This document shows, one piece after another, positions 1,388-21,194 of a stretch of 64,000 bases of DNA; positions within the stretch are counted from its first letter, which is position 1, and each line of letters opens with the position of its first letter. The position numbers and the translations under genes are program-made. Location: positions 7,998,001-8,062,000 of the forward strand of contig NZ_CP109327.1 of NCBI RefSeq assembly GCF_035918155.1, in the 5' to 3' direction. Source of the stretch: Streptomyces sp. NBC_01591 (GTDB lineage Bacteria; Actinomycetota; Actinomycetes; Streptomycetales; Streptomycetaceae). The notes below the pieces were generated by a model. It made no database searches. It was not told the DNA's origin and worked only from the letters and a program-made list of their open reading frames with translations.

Positions 1388-3268
1388 ATGCCGGTCGGTG
1401 GGCTGGTTCCCAGCACCACCGACAACCCCGCGGACCTCATCGTCCGCAACGCGAAGATCCATACAGGAGACCCGGGGCGCCCGCAGGCCGAGGCGATCGC
1501 CATACGGGACGGGGTCATCACGGTCGTCGGCGACGACAAGGACGTGGCCCTCCACGTCGGCCCGGCCACGAAGGTGGTCGACGCTCTCGGCCGCCGGATG
1601 ATCCCCGGCCTCAACGACTCCCACCTGCACGTCATCCGGGGTGGGCTCAACTACGTGCTGGAGCTGCGCTGGGACGGCGTCCGCACGCTGCGCCAGGGCC
1701 TGGCGATGCTGCGTGAACAGGCGGCCCGCACGCCGAAGGGCCAGTGGGTCCGGGTGGTGGGGGGATGGTCGGCCGAGCAGTTCGCCGAACGGCGGCTGCC
1801 GACCGTCGCCGAGTTGAATGCCGCCGCGCCGGACACACCGGTGTTCGTTCTGCACCTGTACCAGTCGGCGGTGCTCAACCGGGCTGCGCTCAAGGCCGCC
1901 GGATACACCAGGGACACCCCCGATCCGAAGGGCGGTCAGATCGTACGGGGCCGGGACGGTGAGCCCACGGGCATGCTGCTGGCCGCCCCGAGTGCTCTGA
2001 TCCTCTACTCGACTCTGGCCAAGGCCCCGGTGCTGGAGGGCGAGGACAAGAAGACCTCCACCCGCCACTTCCTGCGGGAACTGAACAGGTTCGGGCTCAC
2101 GTCGGCGATCGACGCGGCGGGGGGCTTCCAGAATTTCCCCGACAACTACAGCACGGTCGTCGAACTGGCCAAGGCCGGTCAGCTTTCGCTGCGCATCGCC
2201 TACCATCTTTTCCCGCAGAACGCCGGTCAGGAAATCGACGACCTCGCCCGCTGGATCGAAATGGCCCGCCCCGAGGACGGGGACGAATGGCTCCGCCTCA
2301 ACGGTGCGGGAGAGAATCTCACCTGGGCGGCAGCAGACTTCGAGAACTTTGCCCAGCCGCGCCCGGAACTCGCTCCCGGCTATGAGACAGAATTCGAGAA
2401 GGCCGTACGTCTGCTCATGGAGAACGGCTGGGGATTCCGGCTGCACGCCACCTACGACGACACCATCCGACGCGATCTCGCGATATTCGAAAAGTTGGCC
2501 GCGGAAGGACTCTTCCCGGCCGGAAACCGGTGGCTGTTCGACCATGCGGAGACAGTCTCTGCGGACAGCCTCGACCGCATCGCCGCCCTCGGCGGCGCCA
2601 TGTCCGTGCAGAATCGCCTGTCCTTCCAGGGCGAGGCGTTCGTACGCCGCTACGGCCCCGGCGCCGCAGCGGACGCCCCTCCGATCCGGGCCATGCTGGA
2701 GCGCGGTCTGACCGTCGGCGCCGGCACCGACGCCACCCGGGTCTCGACCTACAACCCGTGGATCGCCCTGCACTGGCTGATCACCGGCCGCACCGTCGGC
2801 GACCTGGTCATACGCCCGCCGCACAACCGCGTCGACCGGCAGACGGCGCTGTCGATGTTCACCGAAGCAGGGGCTCGGCTGACCGGCGAGGAGGACGTCA
2901 AGGGCGTCCTGAGCCCGGGCTCCCTCGGCGACCTCGCGGTCCTGTCCGAGGACTACTTTGCCGTGCCCGAGCCGGACATTGTGCACATCGAGTCCCTGCT
3001 GACGGTCGTCGGCGGCCGCATCGTCTACGCCGCCGCCGAGTACGAGGGCCTCGACGAGGAACTGCCGCCGGTCAGCCCCGAGTGGAGCCCGGTCGCGCAC
3101 TTCGGCGGCTACCAGGCCACGCCCGGTACCGGCTCGTCGGGCGCCCGCCAGGCCGAGTTGCTCGGCCTGGCCGTCGCGGAGTCGGAGCAGCACCGACAGT
3201 GGCGCGCCCGACGAGGTCTGGCCCCGGATACCGAGAGCACGGTCTTCGACCCCTGCTTCTCGCTCTGA
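1388..3268 (+). CDS. Amidohydrolase family protein (YtcJ-like, Amidohydro_3)
   Basis: Predicted metal-dependent amidohydrolase of the YtcJ type, 626 residues. The N-terminal half carries the beta-sandwich plus metal motif NDSHLHV (about residue 78). Later come a long Amidohydro_3 insertion, DHAET (about 385), and GTDATRVS (about 450) supplying the late Asp, then the C-terminal dihydroorotase-like tail GSLGDLAVLSED. The start is the ATG at 1388, preceded by AAGGT at 8 nt; the reading frame is open further upstream but has no plausible coding character there. The substrate is unknown. It is followed by an isochorismatase-type hydrolase, suggesting successive hydrolyses of an amide or imine compound. 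Confidence 0.8.
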   Translation: MPVGGLVPSTTDNPADLIVRNAKIHTGDPGRPQAEAIAIRDGVITVVGDDKDVALHVGPATKVVDALGRRMIPGLNDSHLHVIRGGLNYVLELRWDGVRTLRQGLAMLREQAARTPKGQWVRVVGGWSAEQFAERRLPTVAELNAAAPDTPVFVLHLYQSAVLNRAALKAAGYTRDTPDPKGGQIVRGRDGEPTGMLLAAPSALILYSTLAKAPVLEGEDKKTSTRHFLRELNRFGLTSAIDAAGGFQNFPDNYSTVVELAKAGQLSLRIAYHLFPQNAGQEIDDLARWIEMARPEDGDEWLRLNGAGENLTWAAADFENFAQPRPELAPGYETEFEKAVRLLMENGWGFRLHATYDDTIRRDLAIFEKLAAEGLFPAGNRWLFDHAETVSADSLDRIAALGGAMSVQNRLSFQGEAFVRRYGPGAAADAPPIRAMLERGLTVGAGTDATRVSTYNPWIALHWLITGRTVGDLVIRPPHNRVDRQTALSMFTEAGARLTGEEDVKGVLSPGSLGDLAVLSEDYFAVPEPDIVHIESLLTVVGGRIVYAAAEYEGLDEELPPVSPEWSPVAHFGGYQATPGTGSSGARQAELLGLAVAESEQHRQWRARRGLAPDTESTVFDPCFSL

Positions 3269-3400
3269 TCTCCCGGGAGAGGCCCGGTCACGAGCCGCCC
3301 CTCCCGGGGCACCACCCCCCACCTCTCGCCGTCGAACGGACGGCTTTGCTCAGCAGCGGACGCCCGTCCGCGATCACATCAGTCATAGAAAGGCCCTCTC

Positions 3401-4063
3401 GTGGTCAACATCTCCGAAGTCACCGCCGCCCCCGGTCCCGACCTGCTGACCCCCGACAACTGCGCCGTGCTGTTTGTGGACCACCAGCCGCAGATGTTCT
3501 TCGGCACCGGCAGCGGCGACCGCACCGCCATCATCAACTCGACCGTGGGCCTGGCCAAGGCAGCCAAGGTGTTCGACGTTCCGGTGGTCCTGAGCACCGT
3601 GGCCGCAGAGTCCTTCTCGGGTCCGATCATGCCGCAGCTGGCTGATGTCTTCCCCGACAAGAAGATCATCGACCGCACCACGATGAACGCCTGGGAGGAC
3701 AGCAACTTCGTCGAAGCCGTCAAGGCGACGGGCCGCAAGAAGCTCGTCATTGCCGGGCTGTGGACCGAGGTCTGCGTCGTACTGCCCACGCTGTCCGCCA
3801 TCTCCCAGGGCTACGAGGTCTACGTCGTCACGGACGCGTCCGGCGGCGTCAGCCCGCAGGCGCACGAGCACGCCATCCAGCGCATGGTCCAGGGTGGCGC
3901 GATTCCGGTGACCTGGGTGCAGGTGCTCCTTGAGCTCCAGCGCGACTGGGCGCGGACGGAGACGTACGTCCCCGTCACGGAGGTGGTGAAGGAGCACGGC
4001 GGGGCCTACGGCCTGGGCCTGGTCTACGCGCAGGCCGTCATCGGCGCCCACGCGGCCGGCTGA
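3401..4063 (+). CDS. Isochorismatase-family cysteine hydrolase (YcaC-like)
   Basis: Cytoplasmic cysteine hydrolase, 220 residues, of the isochorismatase/nicotinamidase fold. The catalytic Asp is in VLFVDHQPQ (about residue 27), a Lys region follows (KKIIDRTT), and the nucleophile Cys is in LWTEVCVVLP (about 126) with the usual preceding cis-peptide turn. The arrangement fits the YcaC-like subgroup, whose substrate is generally unknown. The start is GTG at 3401 with a GAAAGG ribosome site. It lies 132 bp after the amidohydrolase and 46 bp before DoxX, so probably in the same transcription unit. Confidence 0.85.
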   Translation: MVNISEVTAAPGPDLLTPDNCAVLFVDHQPQMFFGTGSGDRTAIINSTVGLAKAAKVFDVPVVLSTVAAESFSGPIMPQLADVFPDKKIIDRTTMNAWEDSNFVEAVKATGRKKLVIAGLWTEVCVVLPTLSAISQGYEVYVVTDASGGVSPQAHEHAIQRMVQGGAIPVTWVQVLLELQRDWARTETYVPVTEVVKEHGGAYGLGLVYAQAVIGAHAAG

Positions 4064-4109
4064 CTCTTCACCTGAGCATCGACGGAACGTCAGGAACAGG
4101 CAGGAACGA

Positions 4110-4634
4110 ATGGATACCGGACTGTTGGTCCTCCGACTCGTGGCGGGGCTCCTCATCGCCGGGCACGGAGTGCAGAAAGTCAGTTTCCGCCTCGGCGGCA
4201 ACGGCTTGGCGGGCGGAACCGAGGAGTTCCGCCACGACGGCTTCCGCGGTGGCAGGCTCACCGCGCTTGCCGCGGGCGGCAGCCAGATCGGCGCCGGCCT
4301 GTTCCTGGCGGCCGGTCTGCTCACTCCCGGGGCGGCGATGGCAGCCATGGGGGTGATGACGGTTGCCGGCACCGTCAAATGGCACAACGGGCTCTGGGTC
4401 CAGAACGACGGCTACGAGTACCCCATGGTCCTCGTCGTGGCCTCCGCGGTCCTGGCCCTCACCGGTCCCGGCCGCTGGTCGGCCGACCACGCCCTCGGAC
4501 TGACCCCCTGGCCCCTGTGGGTCTCGGTCGCAGCCATCGTGGTCGGCCCGGTGAGCGGACTGATCACCCGTGTGCTGCTGCATCGTCCCTCAGCCAAGGA
4601 AGGAACAACTCGGTATGCGCAAGCTGCTGACTGA
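4110..4634 (+). CDS. DoxX-family membrane protein
   Basis: Small inner-membrane protein of 174 residues with four hydrophobic segments (about 5-22, 50-75, 78-100, 115-140). The early motif RLVAGLLIAGHGVQK is typical of DoxX/MauE-like proteins, often tied to thiol or quinone redox functions. ATG at 4110 follows caggaacgA. The last 20 bases overlap the next gene, whose start at 4615 lies inside this frame, implying translational coupling. Substrate is not deducible. Confidence 0.8.
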   Translation: MDTGLLVLRLVAGLLIAGHGVQKVSFRLGGNGLAGGTEEFRHDGFRGGRLTALAAGGSQIGAGLFLAAGLLTPGAAMAAMGVMTVAGTVKWHNGLWVQNDGYEYPMVLVVASAVLALTGPGRWSADHALGLTPWPLWVSVAAIVVGPVSGLITRVLLHRPSAKEGTTRYAQAAD

Positions 4635-12459: not shown

Positions 12460-13440
12460 ATGAGCGACGTCGAGAGGGAGCCCGCCGAACTTCACTGCGG
12501 GGCCTCGGACCGTGATCAGCATGCGCCGAAGGTCGACGTCCTCTCCGCGCGGGACGTCCCGTTGGGCGGTCCGAGGGCTATGACGGTACGGCGTACGCTG
12601 CCACAGCGGGCCCGGACATTGATCGGGGCCTGGTGCTTCGTCGACCACTACGGCCCCGACGACGTCACCGACACGGGCGGCATGGACGTCGCGCCCCATC
12701 CTCATACCGGTCTGCAGACGGTGAGCTGGCTGTTCAGCGGGGAGATCGAGCACCGGGACAGCATGGGCAGCCACGCGCTCGTGAGACCCGGAGAGCTGAA
12801 TCTCATGACGGGCGGGTACGGAATCAGCCACTCGGAAGTCTCCACCACCCGCACCACGATCCTCCACGGCGTCCAGCTGTGGGTTGCGCTTCCCGAAGAA
12901 CACCGGCACACCGGCCGTGACTTCCAGCACTACGTCCCGAGCCCGGTCCGGGTGGACGGAGCCGAAGTCAGAGTGTTCCTGGGGACGCTGGCAGGTGGCA
13001 CCTCTCCGGTGCGGACCTTCACGCCCCTGCTCGGTGCCGAAATCATCCTTGAGCCATGCTCGACGACCACACTCGCCATCGACACCGGCTTCGAGTACGG
13101 CCTTCTCGTCGACCACGGGGAAGTCTGTATCGCTGGAACAATCCTGCGCCCGGCGGAGTTGGGCTACCTCGGCACGGGAAGCGACACACTGACGCTGGCG
13201 AACGAGACGGATAACGATGCTCGAGTAGTCCTGCTCGGCGGGACGCCGTTCGAGGAACAGATCGTCATGTGGTGGAATTTCATCGGCCGGAGCCACGAGG
13301 ACATCGTCGAGGCCAGGGAAGCGTGGCAGAGCGCATCCGACCGCTTCGGCAAGGTCGATGGTTACGACGGCGACCGCCTTCCCGCGCCCGCCCTTCCCAA
13401 CGCCACCATCGCACCGCGCAAGAACCCGACGCGCCCCTGA
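12460..13440 (+). CDS. Pirin family protein
   Basis: Bicupin of 326 residues. The N-terminal cupin has the pirin metal motif PHPHTGLQTVSWLFSGEIEH (about 78-97) and the following HSEVS, giving the His/Glu ligands; the second cupin is more degenerate. Pirins are iron-binding nuclear regulators in eukaryotes and quercetin dioxygenase-like or redox-sensing proteins in bacteria. ATG at 12460 has GGGAGGGA upstream. The acetyltransferase at 13451 starts 10 bp after its stop, so the two are cotranscribed. Confidence 0.9.
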   Translation: MSDVEREPAELHCGASDRDQHAPKVDVLSARDVPLGGPRAMTVRRTLPQRARTLIGAWCFVDHYGPDDVTDTGGMDVAPHPHTGLQTVSWLFSGEIEHRDSMGSHALVRPGELNLMTGGYGISHSEVSTTRTTILHGVQLWVALPEEHRHTGRDFQHYVPSPVRVDGAEVRVFLGTLAGGTSPVRTFTPLLGAEIILEPCSTTTLAIDTGFEYGLLVDHGEVCIAGTILRPAELGYLGTGSDTLTLANETDNDARVVLLGGTPFEEQIVMWWNFIGRSHEDIVEAREAWQSASDRFGKVDGYDGDRLPAPALPNATIAPRKNPTRP

Positions 13441-13450
13441 AAGGCATACG

Positions 13451-13792
13451 ATGACGCAGCCCGCCGCCGCTCCGACTGTCCAGCGAGTGGACCCCAAACA
13501 CCGTTACGAAATCCTGGTGGACGGCAAAACCGCAGGCCTCACCGCGTACCGCGACCGCGACGACCAGCGCGTTTTCTACCACACCGAAATCGACGACGCC
13601 TTCGCCGGACAGGGCCTGGCCTCGATCCTCGTACAGCAGGCCCTGAACGACGTACGCACCTCAGGGAAGCGCATCGTGCCGGTCTGCCCCTATGTGGCGA
13701 AGTTCCTCAAGAAGCATGACGAGTTCGCCGACATCACCGACCCGGTGACCCCCGAGGTCCTGAAGTGGCTGGACACCGTGCTGCAGCACTGA
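13451..13792 (+). CDS. Small GNAT-like N-acetyltransferase (YjdJ type)
   Basis: 113 residues of the short Gcn5-like family (PF14542 type) that keeps only the acetyl-CoA-binding half of the fold: FYHTEIDDAFAGQGLASILV is the beta4-alpha3 region and VCPYVAKFLKKHDEF the C-terminal signature. Substrate unknown. AAAGG precedes ATG 13451. There are two paralogues in the window, at 20859 (nearly identical through the core) and 36433 (more distant). Confidence 0.85.
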   Translation: MTQPAAAPTVQRVDPKHRYEILVDGKTAGLTAYRDRDDQRVFYHTEIDDAFAGQGLASILVQQALNDVRTSGKRIVPVCPYVAKFLKKHDEFADITDPVTPEVLKWLDTVLQH

Positions 13793-14161: not shown

Positions 14162-14710
14162 TCACTGACGCCGCAGGAGGTACTTGTGCTGGCCGGACAG
14201 CACCAGTTCGCCGCGTTGGTTGCGGATGGTGGCCGCGGTGACTACGACACCGTTGTCGCCCTGCGGCTCCAGGCCGGTGATGGTGAGCGCCGGGTACAGA
14301 GTGTCTCCGGAGTGCACTTCGGCCAGGAAGGTGCAGGACAGTTCGAGGAAGCTGATGAACACCTCTCCGATGAAGTGGGGGAGCAGGGTGGCGCCCGGCG
14401 CGGTGAAGGCGAGCACCTGCAGGCCGTGCGCCACCGGTGCTGAGTGGCTGTGCCTGTGTGCCCATTCGGCGTCGTAGTGCACCGGGTGGTTGTCTGCGGA
14501 GACTGTCTGGAAGGCCGCGGCGTGGGCGTCTGTCAGGGTGCGGCTGGGGGCTCGGAAGACTTCGCCGATGCGTGGGTCCTCGAAGGTTCTGGCCGGGACG
14601 ACCAGGAATGCGTCGCGGTCGAACGCGGGCGGTGCGGCGGCTGCCGCCTGCTGCGTGTCCTGCTGGTCCATCAACTCTGTCTTCTGGTCCGGTGTTGGGT
14701 GCTGCCGCAT
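14162..14710 (-). CDS. MaoC-like hotdog dehydratase
   Basis: Single hotdog-fold (R)-hydratase-like enzyme of up to 182 residues. The hydratase motif is SADNHPVHYDAEWA (catalytic Asp/His), followed by PVAHGLQVLAF, the hot-dog helix region. Such enzymes hydrate enoyl-CoA or related thioesters. Starts at 14710 (MRQHPTPD) and 14671 (MDQQDTQQ) are both possible; the first 30 residues are Ala/Gln-rich and probably disordered. Followed in the same direction by the small lipoprotein. Confidence 0.8.
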   Translation of the reverse strand: MRQHPTPDQKTELMDQQDTQQAAAAAPPAFDRDAFLVVPARTFEDPRIGEVFRAPSRTLTDAHAAAFQTVSADNHPVHYDAEWAHRHSHSAPVAHGLQVLAFTAPGATLLPHFIGEVFISFLELSCTFLAEVHSGDTLYPALTITGLEPQGDNGVVVTAATIRNQRGELVLSGQHKYLLRRQ

Positions 14711-14811: not shown

Positions 14812-15786
14812 TTATTGGGCGGGGGTGATCCGTGCGGCCAGGAGGCTGGGGTCGTTGTTGGTGAAGTAGGCGCCGCTGGCGATGTAGGCCGTGTTGCCGC
14901 GTACGGCGAGCGAGGTCGGGTTCTCCAGCCCGTCGGCGCCGGTCAGCACGACCGTGTGGCTGCCGCCCGGCCTGACCAGGGCCACCTCGTTGTCCGCATT
15001 GATGGCGGCCAGGAGGGTGTCGCCGCGGCCGGTGAACGCGAAGTCGTCGATGTTGATCAGGCCGGTGGCCCGGGTCTCAACGGGGCCGGCGGTGCCGTAC
15101 CGGGTGACCGGGATGCGCAGCACGGTGCCCTTGTCCAGGTTGGACACCCAGACCGCCCCGTTGTGGATTTTGATGCCGTTGGCTCCGAGGAATCCGGCGG
15201 CGGCGAGTTCGGGGGCGGTGGCCCACCGGGTGGGCGTGCCCCCGGTGACGGGCACCCGCCAGACCGTGCCGAGGACCGAGTCGGCCACGTACAGCCGGCC
15301 TTCGTGCCGGTCGAGGGCCAGGCCGTTGGGCAGGCCGTCGGCCGGGAGCGCGGCGATGCGCTGAGGGGCGTCGCCGGGGCGCAGTCGCCACAGGCCGGTC
15401 AGGTCGCTGCTGCCGGTGGCGTACAGGAAGTACAGGGTCCCGTCGTGGGCACGGACGATTCCGCCGAGGAAGGGCGAGGAGAGGGCAGGGGTGTCGGCGC
15501 CGGCCGGAGGCTGGGGCAGGGTGGCGAGGACGTGCACCCGGCCGTCGGGGTGGATGCGGGCCACTTGACGGCTGTAGGCGAAGGTGACGACGGCGCTGCC
15601 GCCAGGCTCCAGAGTGATGTTCTCCGGTCGCTGTCCGTCGGCGATGTCCAGGTGTGCCACGAAGCGCACGTCCGGCTTCGGGGCGGCGGTGGCCGCGGTC
15701 GTGGGGCCGGCCGCGGTCATGGCGAGGGCCGCCGCGACGACCGAGGCCAGGAGGCCGGTGCGCGTCCCTGTCAGGTATCTGGTCAT
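14812..15786 (-). CDS. ScyD/ScyE-like secreted beta-propeller (SMP-30-like)
   Basis: Secreted protein of 324 residues: signal peptide (MTRYLTGTRTGLLASVVAAA ... AAPKPD, cleavage near residue 35), then blades of a six-bladed propeller with repeated Asn/Gly turns (LPNGLALDRHEGRLYVADS, FLGANGIKIHNGAVWVSNLD, LENPTSLAVRGNTAYIAS). Matches the ScyD/ScyE family seen in many streptomycetes; activity unknown. The start at 15786 is favoured by the signal peptide and an AAGAGA ribosome site. The frame is open upstream into a fumarylacetoacetase-like fragment. Confidence 0.8.
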   Translation of the reverse strand: MTRYLTGTRTGLLASVVAAALAMTAAGPTTAATAAPKPDVRFVAHLDIADGQRPENITLEPGGSAVVTFAYSRQVARIHPDGRVHVLATLPQPPAGADTPALSSPFLGGIVRAHDGTLYFLYATGSSDLTGLWRLRPGDAPQRIAALPADGLPNGLALDRHEGRLYVADSVLGTVWRVPVTGGTPTRWATAPELAAAGFLGANGIKIHNGAVWVSNLDKGTVLRIPVTRYGTAGPVETRATGLINIDDFAFTGRGDTLLAAINADNEVALVRPGGSHTVVLTGADGLENPTSLAVRGNTAYIASGAYFTNNDPSLLAARITPAQ

Positions 15787-15819
15787 GTGGGATCTCTTCT
15801 TCTTTCTCTCTGATTGCAG

Positions 15820-16023
15820 GGGCGCGGGCGCACCGAGGCCCGCCGGGTCGAAGGGGACCCCGCCGCCGAGGTCGGCCCGGGCGGCCCAGGCGCGGAACTC
15901 GTCCCAGCGGGAGTAGACCGCCTGCGGGTCGGAGGAGAACAGTGCGCCACTGGCTGTGTGGACGTCGGCCGCCCGGCCGTGGGTGATCACGACCAGTCGG
16001 CCGGCGAGATTGGCGATGCGCAA
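15820..16023 (-). pseudogene. N-terminal fragment of an FAH-family hydrolase, in frame with the downstream gene
   Basis: From a TTG at 16023 (with CAGGGAG upstream) the frame reads about 68 residues typical of the start of actinobacterial fumarylacetoacetate-hydrolase-family proteins (RIANLAGRLVVITHGRAADV, then YSRWDEFRAWA). It stops resembling the family before any metal-binding residue. The frame then runs without a stop through a Lys/Arg linker into the signal peptide of the propeller protein at 15786. I read it as a deletion scar; a fusion product is possible but would bury the signal peptide. Confidence 0.65.
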
Positions 16024-16099
16024 GGCGGGCTCCCTGTTGGATGGAGGGTCGAGTTGCGGGCGGCGGTTCCGCGCCGAAGCGGGTGGCCCGCGCCGGTGC

Positions 16100-17878
16100 T
16101 CAGCTGGTGGGCCGAGTGGCACGTTCGAGTGCGAGCAGCACAGATTGGTAGGGGCGGTCCGTGGTGTGTTGCATGCCGATCTCACAGGTGCGGTTGGCCG
16201 ACAGGCAGGCGTCGAACGCGCCCGAGGTGACCTCGGCGGCCTCGTGTGCCGTCGCCGCCTTGGTCAGTTCCTTGTGCAGCAGTCCCCGGTCGCCGGCGAA
16301 GCCGCAGCACTCCGCGTAGACGGGTACCTGGACGTCCCGCGCGATGAACTCGGCGACGGCCTGAAGCTGGTCGACGTCCTTGAGGTGTCGCATGGAGCAG
16401 GTGGGGTGGAGCACCACGCTGTCGATCGGGTCGGTCACCTCAAGGTGCGGCAGCAGTTCGGTGGCGGCCCAGACGACGGAGTCCACCACGGTGAGAGCGC
16501 GGTGCTTGCGCAGGTTCTCGGCCGTCAGATACGGCGTGACTTCCTGCCCGATGCCGAGTGTGCAGGACGACGCGTCGACGATGAGCGGCAGACGTCCGCC
16601 GTCGGTCCACTCCCAGGCTCGCTCGACGATGCGGTTCGCCATGACGGTGTTGCCGTCGTCGTAGCCCAGGATGCGGCGGCGGCCGTTCGGCGTCAGGTAG
16701 CGGGCGGCCCACACACAGCACATCCCGGTGTCCACGGTGAACACCGCGTCGTCGGCAGCCTCCTCGTCGAGTACCGCCGCCACGTACTCGGGGTGTATGG
16801 GAGTGTGCTTGTCGACGTTGCGGGTGTAGGCACCGACGGCAACCTCCAAAGCGTGGACGTGCCGGTCCAGCATCCGGTCGAGGAACCGGCGGGACGGCTT
16901 CTCCTGCACGGCCGGGATCAGCCACCGCAGCGTCTCACGGATGTCTCCCCAGACGGCGAAGTCCAACTGGGTGCGACGGCCCAGCCGTTCGGGCTGAACA
17001 TCGATCTGCACCGTTCTGACGTGCCGTGGCAGGAAGTCCGTGTACGGAAAGTCGGTGCCGAGGAGCAGCAGCAGGTCGCATTCGTGCATGGCCTCGTACG
17101 CGGCGCCGTATCCCAGCAGTCCGGACATGCCGACGTCGTACGGGTTGTCGTACTGGATGTGTTCCTTGCCTCGGAGCGCATGGCCGACCGGGGCCTTGAC
17201 CTTCTCGGCGAACGCCATCACCTCGGCGTGGGCACCGGCGGCACCCTGGCCGCAGAACACCGTCACCGTCTCGGCGGCGTCCACCAGCTCCGTCAGCCGG
17301 GTCAGTTCCTGATCGGCCGGACGGACTGCGGGCCGGTCCAGCGGCATCGCGAGTTCGGCCCCGCCGACCGGAGAGTTCTCGGCGGCGATGTCTCCTGGCA
17401 GCGCTACGACGGACACTCCGCGCCGGCCGACCGCATGTTGAATCGCCGTCTGCACCATCCGCGGCATCTGCCGGGGCGAGGAAATCAGTTCCGAGTAGTG
17501 ACTGCACTCCTCGAACAGCCGGTCAGGATGCGTCTCCTGGAAGTACCCGGTTCCGATCTCGCCGCTGGGGATCTGCGCAGCCAGCGCGAGGACGGGAGCC
17601 ATCGACCGGTGGGCATCGAACAGGCCGTTGATCAAATGCAGGTTTCCTGGCCCACAGGACCCCGCGCACGCCGCCAGCCTGCCCGTGAGCTGCGCTTCGG
17701 CGCCGACAGCGAAGGCCGCGACCTCCTCGTGTCGGACCTGGACCCACTCCAGGGCGTCGTGCCATCTGATCGCGTCGACGACGGGGTTCAGGCTGTCGCC
17801 CACCACCCCGTACATGCGGCGCACTCCGGCGCGGGCCAGGAGGTCGACGTACTGCTCGGCAACGGTCTGCTTGGGCAT
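16100..17878 (-). CDS. Chimera: pyruvate-oxidase-like N-terminus fused to Fe-S (CCG) oxidoreductase C-terminus
   Basis: 592 residues in one open frame. Residues 1-405 follow ThDP enzymes of the PoxB type: PYR domain with the ThDP-activating Glu (VRHEEVAAF, about 51), central FAD/DHS-like domain, and the start of the PP domain to NGRRRILG. There the family should continue to the GDGG ThDP/Mg motif, but residues 408-592 instead match the end of FAD/Fe-S D-lactate-dehydrogenase-type proteins (SSCTLGIG, HPTCSMRHL, ECCGFAGDRG, NRTCEIGM, LEERA-like tail). ThDP chemistry should be impossible without the PP motif. ATG 17878 has GAGGAAC upstream. Either a fused pseudogene or a novel Cys-rich protein. 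Confidence 0.8.
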   Translation of the reverse strand: MPKQTVAEQYVDLLARAGVRRMYGVVGDSLNPVVDAIRWHDALEWVQVRHEEVAAFAVGAEAQLTGRLAACAGSCGPGNLHLINGLFDAHRSMAPVLALAAQIPSGEIGTGYFQETHPDRLFEECSHYSELISSPRQMPRMVQTAIQHAVGRRGVSVVALPGDIAAENSPVGGAELAMPLDRPAVRPADQELTRLTELVDAAETVTVFCGQGAAGAHAEVMAFAEKVKAPVGHALRGKEHIQYDNPYDVGMSGLLGYGAAYEAMHECDLLLLLGTDFPYTDFLPRHVRTVQIDVQPERLGRRTQLDFAVWGDIRETLRWLIPAVQEKPSRRFLDRMLDRHVHALEVAVGAYTRNVDKHTPIHPEYVAAVLDEEAADDAVFTVDTGMCCVWAARYLTPNGRRRILGYDDGNTVMANRIVERAWEWTDGGRLPLIVDASSCTLGIGQEVTPYLTAENLRKHRALTVVDSVVWAATELLPHLEVTDPIDSVVLHPTCSMRHLKDVDQLQAVAEFIARDVQVPVYAECCGFAGDRGLLHKELTKAATAHEAAEVTSGAFDACLSANRTCEIGMQHTTDRPYQSVLLALERATRPTS

Positions 17879-18295
17879 GGGTGTTCCTCGGATGGTCGCT
17901 CACGGGGCGGTGGCCAGGGTAATGAGGCGCCGAGCAGACCAGTTGTCACTCCGTGCACCGTGTGGGGCCCGGCAGTGCACCACGGCCGGACTCGGCTTCC
18001 TGCCCATGGGCGCCGGACAACCGCCGGTTGAATCGGGCTTGGTGCGACGCCGGTCGACGGCTTACCCCGACCACAGGCGGCCTGTGCGGCGATCCCCGGC
18101 CCTATGTCCACCGACAAGGCACCGCGTCGTTGCCGGAACGGCTGCCGTTGGGGCGGCGGCATTCATGGAGACGCTCGTCGGAACATAGTTCTTTCACGGG
18201 CAATGCTCCGTGCGTTCTTCGACAACCTGTGCCAGCCACCCGAATTTAGGGTCGGGCGTAGAAAACCGCTTCTGCAATCATTCTTTGGGGCAACC
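17879..18295. other. Intergenic region upstream of two divergent genes
   Basis: 417 bp between the chimeric oxidase and the SsgA-like gene. Frames here are open but have no recognisable protein. It presumably holds both promoters; AT content rises near 18175-18290, just before the SsgA-like start. No repeat or clear operator seen. Confidence 0.4.
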
Positions 18296-20728: not shown

Positions 20729-20858
20729 GGCCCGCCTCCACTCGGTCCGGCCTCCTTCACAGGTGGAGACAGTCGGCCACCGCCATGACAGCGTCGCACG
20801 CTCTGCCCCACGCAACCCTCACTCCACGCACAATCCCGACACGCCTGAGAGGCACGCA

Positions 20859-21194
20859 ATGACACGACCCGCCGACGCTCCGATCGTTCAGCGAGTGGCC
20901 GACAAGCACCGTTACGAGATCCTGGTGGACGGCGAGGTCGCCGGCTTCACCGCCTACCGCGACAGCGCCGACCAGCGCGTCTTCTACCACACCGAAATCG
21001 ACGACTCCTACGCCGGGCTGGGCCTGGCCTCACAGCTCGTGCAGCGGGCGCTGACCGACGTCCGCGCCTCGGGGCGGCGCATCGTGCCTGTCTGCCCCTA
21101 CGTCGCGAAATTCCTCAAAAAGCATGACGAGTTCGACGACATCACCGACCCTGTGACCCCTGAGATCCGGCAGTGGCTGGCAGCCGTGCTGTGA
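20859..21194 (+). CDS. Small GNAT-like N-acetyltransferase (YjdJ type), paralogue 2
   Basis: 111 residues, almost the same as the protein at 13451: FYHTEIDDSYAGLGLASQLV and VCPYVAKFLKKHDEFDDITD. It keeps the acetyl-CoA half-fold of the family. ATG 20859 is preceded by GAGAGGC. The upstream leader also resembles that of the 13451 copy (both translated starts read MT(R/Q)PA.AP.VQRV), so this is a within-genome duplication. Confidence 0.85.
   Translation: MTRPADAPIVQRVADKHRYEILVDGEVAGFTAYRDSADQRVFYHTEIDDSYAGLGLASQLVQRALTDVRASGRRIVPVCPYVAKFLKKHDEFDDITDPVTPEIRQWLAAVL

Follow-up and report, generated by a model that had tools for sequence, protein, structure and literature searches.

A chimeric poxB–dld reading frame in Streptomyces sp. 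NBC_01591, most likely a pseudogene left by deletion in a decaying catabolic cluster

A reading frame that begins as a pyruvate oxidase and ends as an iron–sulfur oxidoreductase raises the question of whether it encodes a new protein or is the open residue of an accident. Such a frame, 592 codons in length, lies in the stretch of 64,000 nucleotides analysed here (the window) from Streptomyces sp. NBC_01591, and combines residues 1–405 of a PoxB-type pyruvate oxidase with residues 789–976 of a D-lactate-dehydrogenase-type FAD/Fe-S protein (Dld; Table 1). An earlier, sequence-only reading had described the frame as a chimera of these two families and had left the choice between a new FAD/Fe-S-type protein and a young fusion pseudogene. 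The chimera itself is borne out by Pfam, by NCBIfam and by comparison with Streptomyces atratus, whose PoxB is 97.5% identical over residues 1–405 and whose Dld is 98.4% identical over the last 188 residues at the amino-acid level. The PoxB half matches NCBIfam PRK06546 (E=7.4e-206, best stretch 3–415) and PDB entry 3eya over residues 3–416, and in the highest-scoring matches of the fused protein the PoxB similarity stops at residues 415–417. For residues 370–592 the best matches in the protein collection are 976-aa FAD/Fe-S proteins, with 90% identity over 93% of the stretch.

Table 1. Features of the fused locus in the window and of the undeleted S. atratus JCM 3386 locus (L022), each in its own numbering
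Feature	Position	Strand	Basis
Fused frame, 592 codons	16100..17878	minus	ORF list, no internal stop
poxB-derived part: PoxB residues 1-404, TPP_enzyme_N and central domain, without TPP_enzyme_C	16668..17878	minus	Alignment, Pfam
dld-derived part: Dld residues 790-976 and stop, CCG domain match	16100..16662	minus	Alignment, Pfam
Deletion scar 1: GGGCT, 5 bp common to both parental break sites	16663..16667	minus	Alignment vs S. atratus
GAGGAA Shine-Dalgarno-like site, inherited from poxB	17884..17889	minus	Sequence
Deletion scar 2: loss of 731 bp with a 2-bp overlap (CC), FAA_hydrolase domain removed	15821..15822	minus	Alignment vs S. atratus
FAA-hydrolase N-terminal remnant, ~120 codons from the ORF's first start codon (putative start)	15821..16185	minus	Alignment
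SMP-30-like gene, own ATG downstream of scar 2 (start inferred from sequence)	14812..15786	minus	Alignment, Pfam
MaoC-like dehydratase, next cluster gene	14162..14710	minus	Alignment, Pfam
S. atratus L022 poxB	2082-3824		No internal stop
S. atratus L022 dld, 976 aa	7637-10567		No internal stop

The fused protein resembles PoxB/PQO enzymes (E. coli PoxB, 3ey9; C. glutamicum PQO, 9ev3) in its N-terminal and central domains (residues 1–405), where TPP_enzyme_N and TPP_enzyme_M score 99.4 and 115.2 bits, both over their Pfam cut-offs, and it has in common with E. coli PoxB an RHEE stretch whose Glu we take to be the ThDP-activating residue. Unlike these enzymes, its C-terminal ThDP/Mg domain and everything beyond it have been replaced. 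Specifically, Pfam did not find TPP_enzyme_C (PF02775, containing the ThDP/Mg motif) in the fusion, whereas the S. atratus PoxB parent carries it at residues 383–529 (145.7 bits), and the Pfam listing gives it for the best 120 PoxB matches listed of 8,000. The NCBIfam equivalog scores fall short as well, at 685 bits for PRK06546 (cut-off 893) and 574 bits for PRK09124 (cut-off 792). The remainder resembles the last 188 residues of the 976-aa Streptomyces Dld-type protein, including a match to the cysteine-rich CCG domain (PF02754, fusion residues 488–568) that scores 26.6 bits in the C-terminal piece and 23.7 in the whole fusion against a cut-off of 20.6. In contrast to that protein, the fusion is without the 788 N-terminal residues: FAD_binding_4, FAD-oxidase_C and the 4Fe-4S dicluster domains, all present in the S. 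atratus Dld parent, were not found in it by Pfam, and the first CCG-like motif of S. atratus Dld, being encoded upstream of the join, has gone too. Because the ThDP domain and the FAD and 4Fe-4S domains of Dld are missing, both chemistries should, from what is known of the two families, be gone, and the hybrid is thus most likely non-functional.

The origin of the frame is best read from relatives. The C-terminal piece, scanned against genome contigs, returned 18 loci, among them that of S. atratus JCM 3386, where the neighbourhood is undeleted and runs poxB, three alpha/beta hydrolases, dld, FAA hydrolase, SMP-30-like gene and MaoC. The reversed window region aligns with it (blastn) in three collinear blocks of 97.5%, 98.9% and 97.0% DNA identity, separated by two deletions, of 6,707 bp and then 731 bp. 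In loci L021, L024, L026 and L039, too, poxB and dld are separate, covered end to end and devoid of internal stops; the order poxB, three alpha/beta hydrolases, dld, FAA hydrolase is kept in L024, and in L039 the two genes are separate and adjacent. Since poxB and dld stand apart in all five of these loci, the comparison indicates that separate genes are the ancestral state and the fusion is derived.

At base level, the 6,707 bp absent from the window are bounded in S. atratus by the 5-mer GGGCT, which occurs at the poxB edge and again at the dld edge; they comprise poxB codons 406–580, the three alpha/beta hydrolases and dld codons 1–788. The resulting scar spans codons 404–406 of the fused frame, and the chance of sharing at least 5 bp at a random join is about 0.9%. 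The sequence-only reading had proposed recombination at short homology, placed at a G-x-x-MAN motif found in both families. Its short homology is there, as the 5-bp GGGCT, but the site has to be moved: the DNA switches some 8 codons before the MAN stretch, and the base-level alignment rules out the common motif as the join. Approximately 840 bp downstream of this first scar lies the second. The Pfam FAA_hydrolase domain occupies residues 127–332 of the S. atratus protein, and what remains in the window matches residues 1–122 of the FAA hydrolase at 99%. A second accidental open frame, 14812-16185 on the minus strand, places this remnant in frame with the SMP-30-like gene across the 731-bp scar. 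The Pfam match of the latter gene (SGL) is just at the cut-off.

These observations suggest the following course of events. An ancestral cluster of poxB, three alpha/beta hydrolases, dld, FAA hydrolase, SMP-30 and MaoC would have suffered a double-strand break in the window lineage, repaired by microhomology-assisted end joining at GGGCT; the loss of 6,707 bp follows from comparison with S. atratus, and the end joining is read from the scars, for which slippage at short repeats is a possible alternative. The ends would have met in frame by chance, placing a 592-codon hybrid under the start codon and ribosome site of poxB, and an adjoining second deletion of 731 bp would have taken out the FAA-hydrolase domain. 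The product, lacking the ThDP/Mg2+ domain of PoxB as well as Dld's first CCG half, its FAD domains and its ferredoxin-type domains, would have no function and be subject to drift, and the frame would be a fusion pseudogene within a redundant catabolic cluster that is itself decaying. That a microhomology deletion produced such a pseudogene here is, on the sequence evidence, very probable.

Such a repair has a precedent within the genus. According to a study on Streptomyces ambofaciens (PMC5869714), repair of induced breaks left deletions of 191–23,591 bp, with microhomology of 1–6 nt in 50% of the scars. Both window scars appear by analogy to fit this NHEJ-type pattern, in deletion size (0.2–24 kb) as well as in microhomology; they differ from those induced scars in being natural, close together and, in one case, in frame between genes. 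The genome of the window itself has nine matches to Ku; four of these lie equally far from the four contig ends, which leaves fewer than nine distinct copies. The right end of contig C1 is some 0.79 Mb away from the fused locus. When the ends of C1 (8,806,301 bp) and C2 (1,272,728 bp) were compared by sampling at 0–20 kb and 135–155 kb, they proved 99.985–99.995% identical to the C1 left end, and the chromosome and the second replicon, of 1.27 Mb, apparently have terminal inverted repeats of 155 kb or more in common.

The open frame had been offered, together with a good ribosome site and normal codon use, as a sign that the hybrid may be made. The open frame and the ribosome site are present: all 592 codons are open and GAGGAA precedes the start, at the place where S. 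atratus has GAGGAG. As an argument for function, the open frame and normal codons carry little weight. The GC content of the window is 69.5% and the GC3 of the fused frame 0.86; the antisense frame at the locus is itself open for 691 codons, and 40% of 20,000 simulated random joins between poxB and the dld region remain open over 561 nt or more, one third of joins being in frame. For these reasons the lack of a stop is a weak argument for function at this GC content. For annotators the lesson is one of caution: with GC near 70%, a frame that stays open across two families says little in favour of a functional fusion.

To gauge selection, changes were polarised with outgroup loci and are given as replacement:silent counts, unpolarisable changes being left out (five in PoxB, two each in Dld, SMP-30 and MaoC, none in the FAA remnant). 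PoxB codons 1–404 show 8:4 on the window branch and 0:4 on the S. atratus branch, and the Dld part 2:1 and 0:1, respectively, so that the pooled fusion stands at 10:5 versus 0:5 (Fisher p=0.033, uncorrected and based on small numbers). Within the window branch, the fusion at 10:5 also differs from SMP-30 at 2:9 (p=0.021, with the same reservations), SMP-30 being at 1:2 on the S. atratus branch. Neutrality predicts a ratio of 1.9 when only transitions are counted and of 2.9 with all changes, a range that 10:5 fits, and a smaller outgroup set agrees (window versus S. atratus branch, PoxB 8:5 versus 0:3, Dld 2:1 versus 0:1). The residues tell a similar story. Eight window residues in the PoxB half occur in none of the 120 PoxBs listed, five of them at sites invariant across all 120; in the Dld half one window residue occurs in 0/120, and two more that differ from S. 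atratus in 3/120 and 5/120. No S. atratus residue in either part is carried by two or fewer of the 120, a control that is slightly lenient for Dld, where an S. atratus protein (P0002) is itself among the 120. Taken together, these sequence comparisons suggest that the fusion drifts near neutrality, with purifying selection relaxed on the window branch.

This relaxation need not be confined to the fused frame. The MaoC gene (157 codons) shows 7:2 on the window branch and 0:2 on that of S. atratus, and the FAA remnant (65 codons) 1:0 and 0:0. Pairwise dN/dS is approximately 0.31 for the PoxB half and 0.34 for the Dld half, exceeding the neighbouring monooxygenase (0.21) and SMP-30 (0.16) but not MaoC (0.37). 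Relaxed selection may therefore be cluster-wide, beginning before the deletion, and its cause need not be the fusion, because the undeleted MaoC is at 7:2 as well.

The strongest competitor to a pseudogene is a young functional fusion, in which the hybrid is made, perhaps as a CCG protein that binds FAD, or within mixed tetramers in which it would be an inactive partner of the PoxB paralogue. The frame is open and retains the poxB start and its GAGGAA site, and in an AlphaFold2 model (mean pLDDT 73.4) local confidence is for the most part good in both N-terminal PoxB domains and in most of the CCG part, while a Foldseek search with this model ranks PoxB and PQO structures at the top. Against this stand residues 336–405, predicted at pLDDT below 50 right up to the seam (block means 24–48), and a pTM of 0.43 for the model as a whole, built from a shallow alignment of 41 rows, as well as the loss of the ThDP domain and of most Fe-S/FAD parts, and the near-neutral substitutions, some of them at sites invariant in 120 PoxBs. 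The distribution of the fusion argues in the same direction. A full-length match was found in one of 392 genomes of the genus, its own (the best of the others, at 862 bits, ends at residue 416), in a scan that scored three candidates per genome and reports the best matches listed; a 33-base seam pattern, allowing up to 3 mismatches, likewise occurs in one of 395 relatives, again the genome of the window. The two sets overlap and records close to this genome are possibly absent from some of them, and sister strains sharing the fusion may exist. On balance a functional fusion is improbable, and the idea of a new FAD/Fe-S-type protein finds no support, given the missing domains, the near-neutral changes and the want of a second case in the sets searched; the reading as a young fusion pseudogene is supported. 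Slimmer again are the prospects of a specific version, in which the hybrid is expressed and selected, its FAD-binding two-domain PoxB core joining a PoxB paralogue with the half CCG domain as a tail. Were it true, a bacterial gene would have been born by a single deletion.

An artefact is very unlikely. The seam is known from assembled sequence alone, and an assembly could in principle have joined two separate genes. However, the breaks fall in matches of 5 bp and 2 bp, probably too short to collapse an assembly, and a search of the three contigs of the assembly did not find the missing 6.7 kb at any other place. The long matches of this segment in its own genome are paralogues of 68–76% identity (74% for the longest, which extends over about 2.4 kb), the others pieces of at most 72 bp at 79–86%; with no copy found in its own genome, translocation of the segment is also rejected. 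Moreover, conserved positions of the PoxB half have already drifted, as would befit a loss that is real and not very recent.

Least credible, to the point of dismissal, is that the frame belongs to an established fusion family or arose by recombination between distant paralogues, since the paralogues that its genome does possess (poxB at C1:6970485, an open frame of 595 aa, 70% identical over residues 1–429; dld at C1:1301574, an open frame of 1011 aa, 66% over residues 404–590) fall far below the 97.5% and 98.4% of the S. atratus cluster copies, which sit in an equivalent neighbourhood, and no second case of the fusion appeared in the listed protein matches, the 392 genus genomes or the 395 relatives. 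Of 8,000 matches in the protein collection, the best 120 are PoxB proteins that cover no more than 68% of the query; the best 120 of 6,838 matches to residues 370–592 contain no ThDP-enzyme domain, and neither set of 120 includes a protein with domains of both families. A tblastn search of plasmids matched 1,363 records, in the best of which (L021) poxB and dld are separate genes; in three records a single joined place spans 80% or more of the query, and none of these three can be picked out from the 20 rows listed. A pattern search of viral contigs yielded 19 stretches, none of them a relative, and the literature search gave, among the titles listed, none that looked related to such a fusion or to chimeric pseudogenes formed by deletion. 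Thus, as far as the compared sequences allow, the fusion is real, derived and in frame, and most likely a pseudogene. It provides a worked example of how a deletion in a Streptomyces chromosome arm gives rise to a plausible-looking chimeric frame, one for which the parent, both breakpoints and the substitution record are known.

Decay of this cluster is, to judge from other sequences, not unique to the window, two further loci being broken differently. In Embleya scabrispora DSM 41855 (L037, 7285-10318), fragments remain of poxB (40–83), the first hydrolase (35–98) and dld (871–974), and two hydrolases are full-length at 95–97% identity to S. atratus despite the other genus. In Streptomyces atroolivaceus NRRL ISP-5137 (L027, 4849-5787), poxB is without its first 267 residues, PoxB 268–580 remaining, and the translation directly upstream of this remnant is something other than PoxB. 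The S. atratus locus has a luciferase-like monooxygenase-like fragment at 3925-4240, between poxB and the hydrolases, and the parental cluster may thus already have carried debris. Locus L021 belongs to a 1.7-Mb linear plasmid of Streptomyces sp. NBC_01340 that carries most of the cluster, including poxB and dld as two distinct open genes; this plasmid location may partly explain the spread of the cluster. In the window the cluster is flanked on both sides by similar GCN5-type N-acetyltransferase genes (PF14542), at 13358-13792 and 20763-21194, both on the plus strand.
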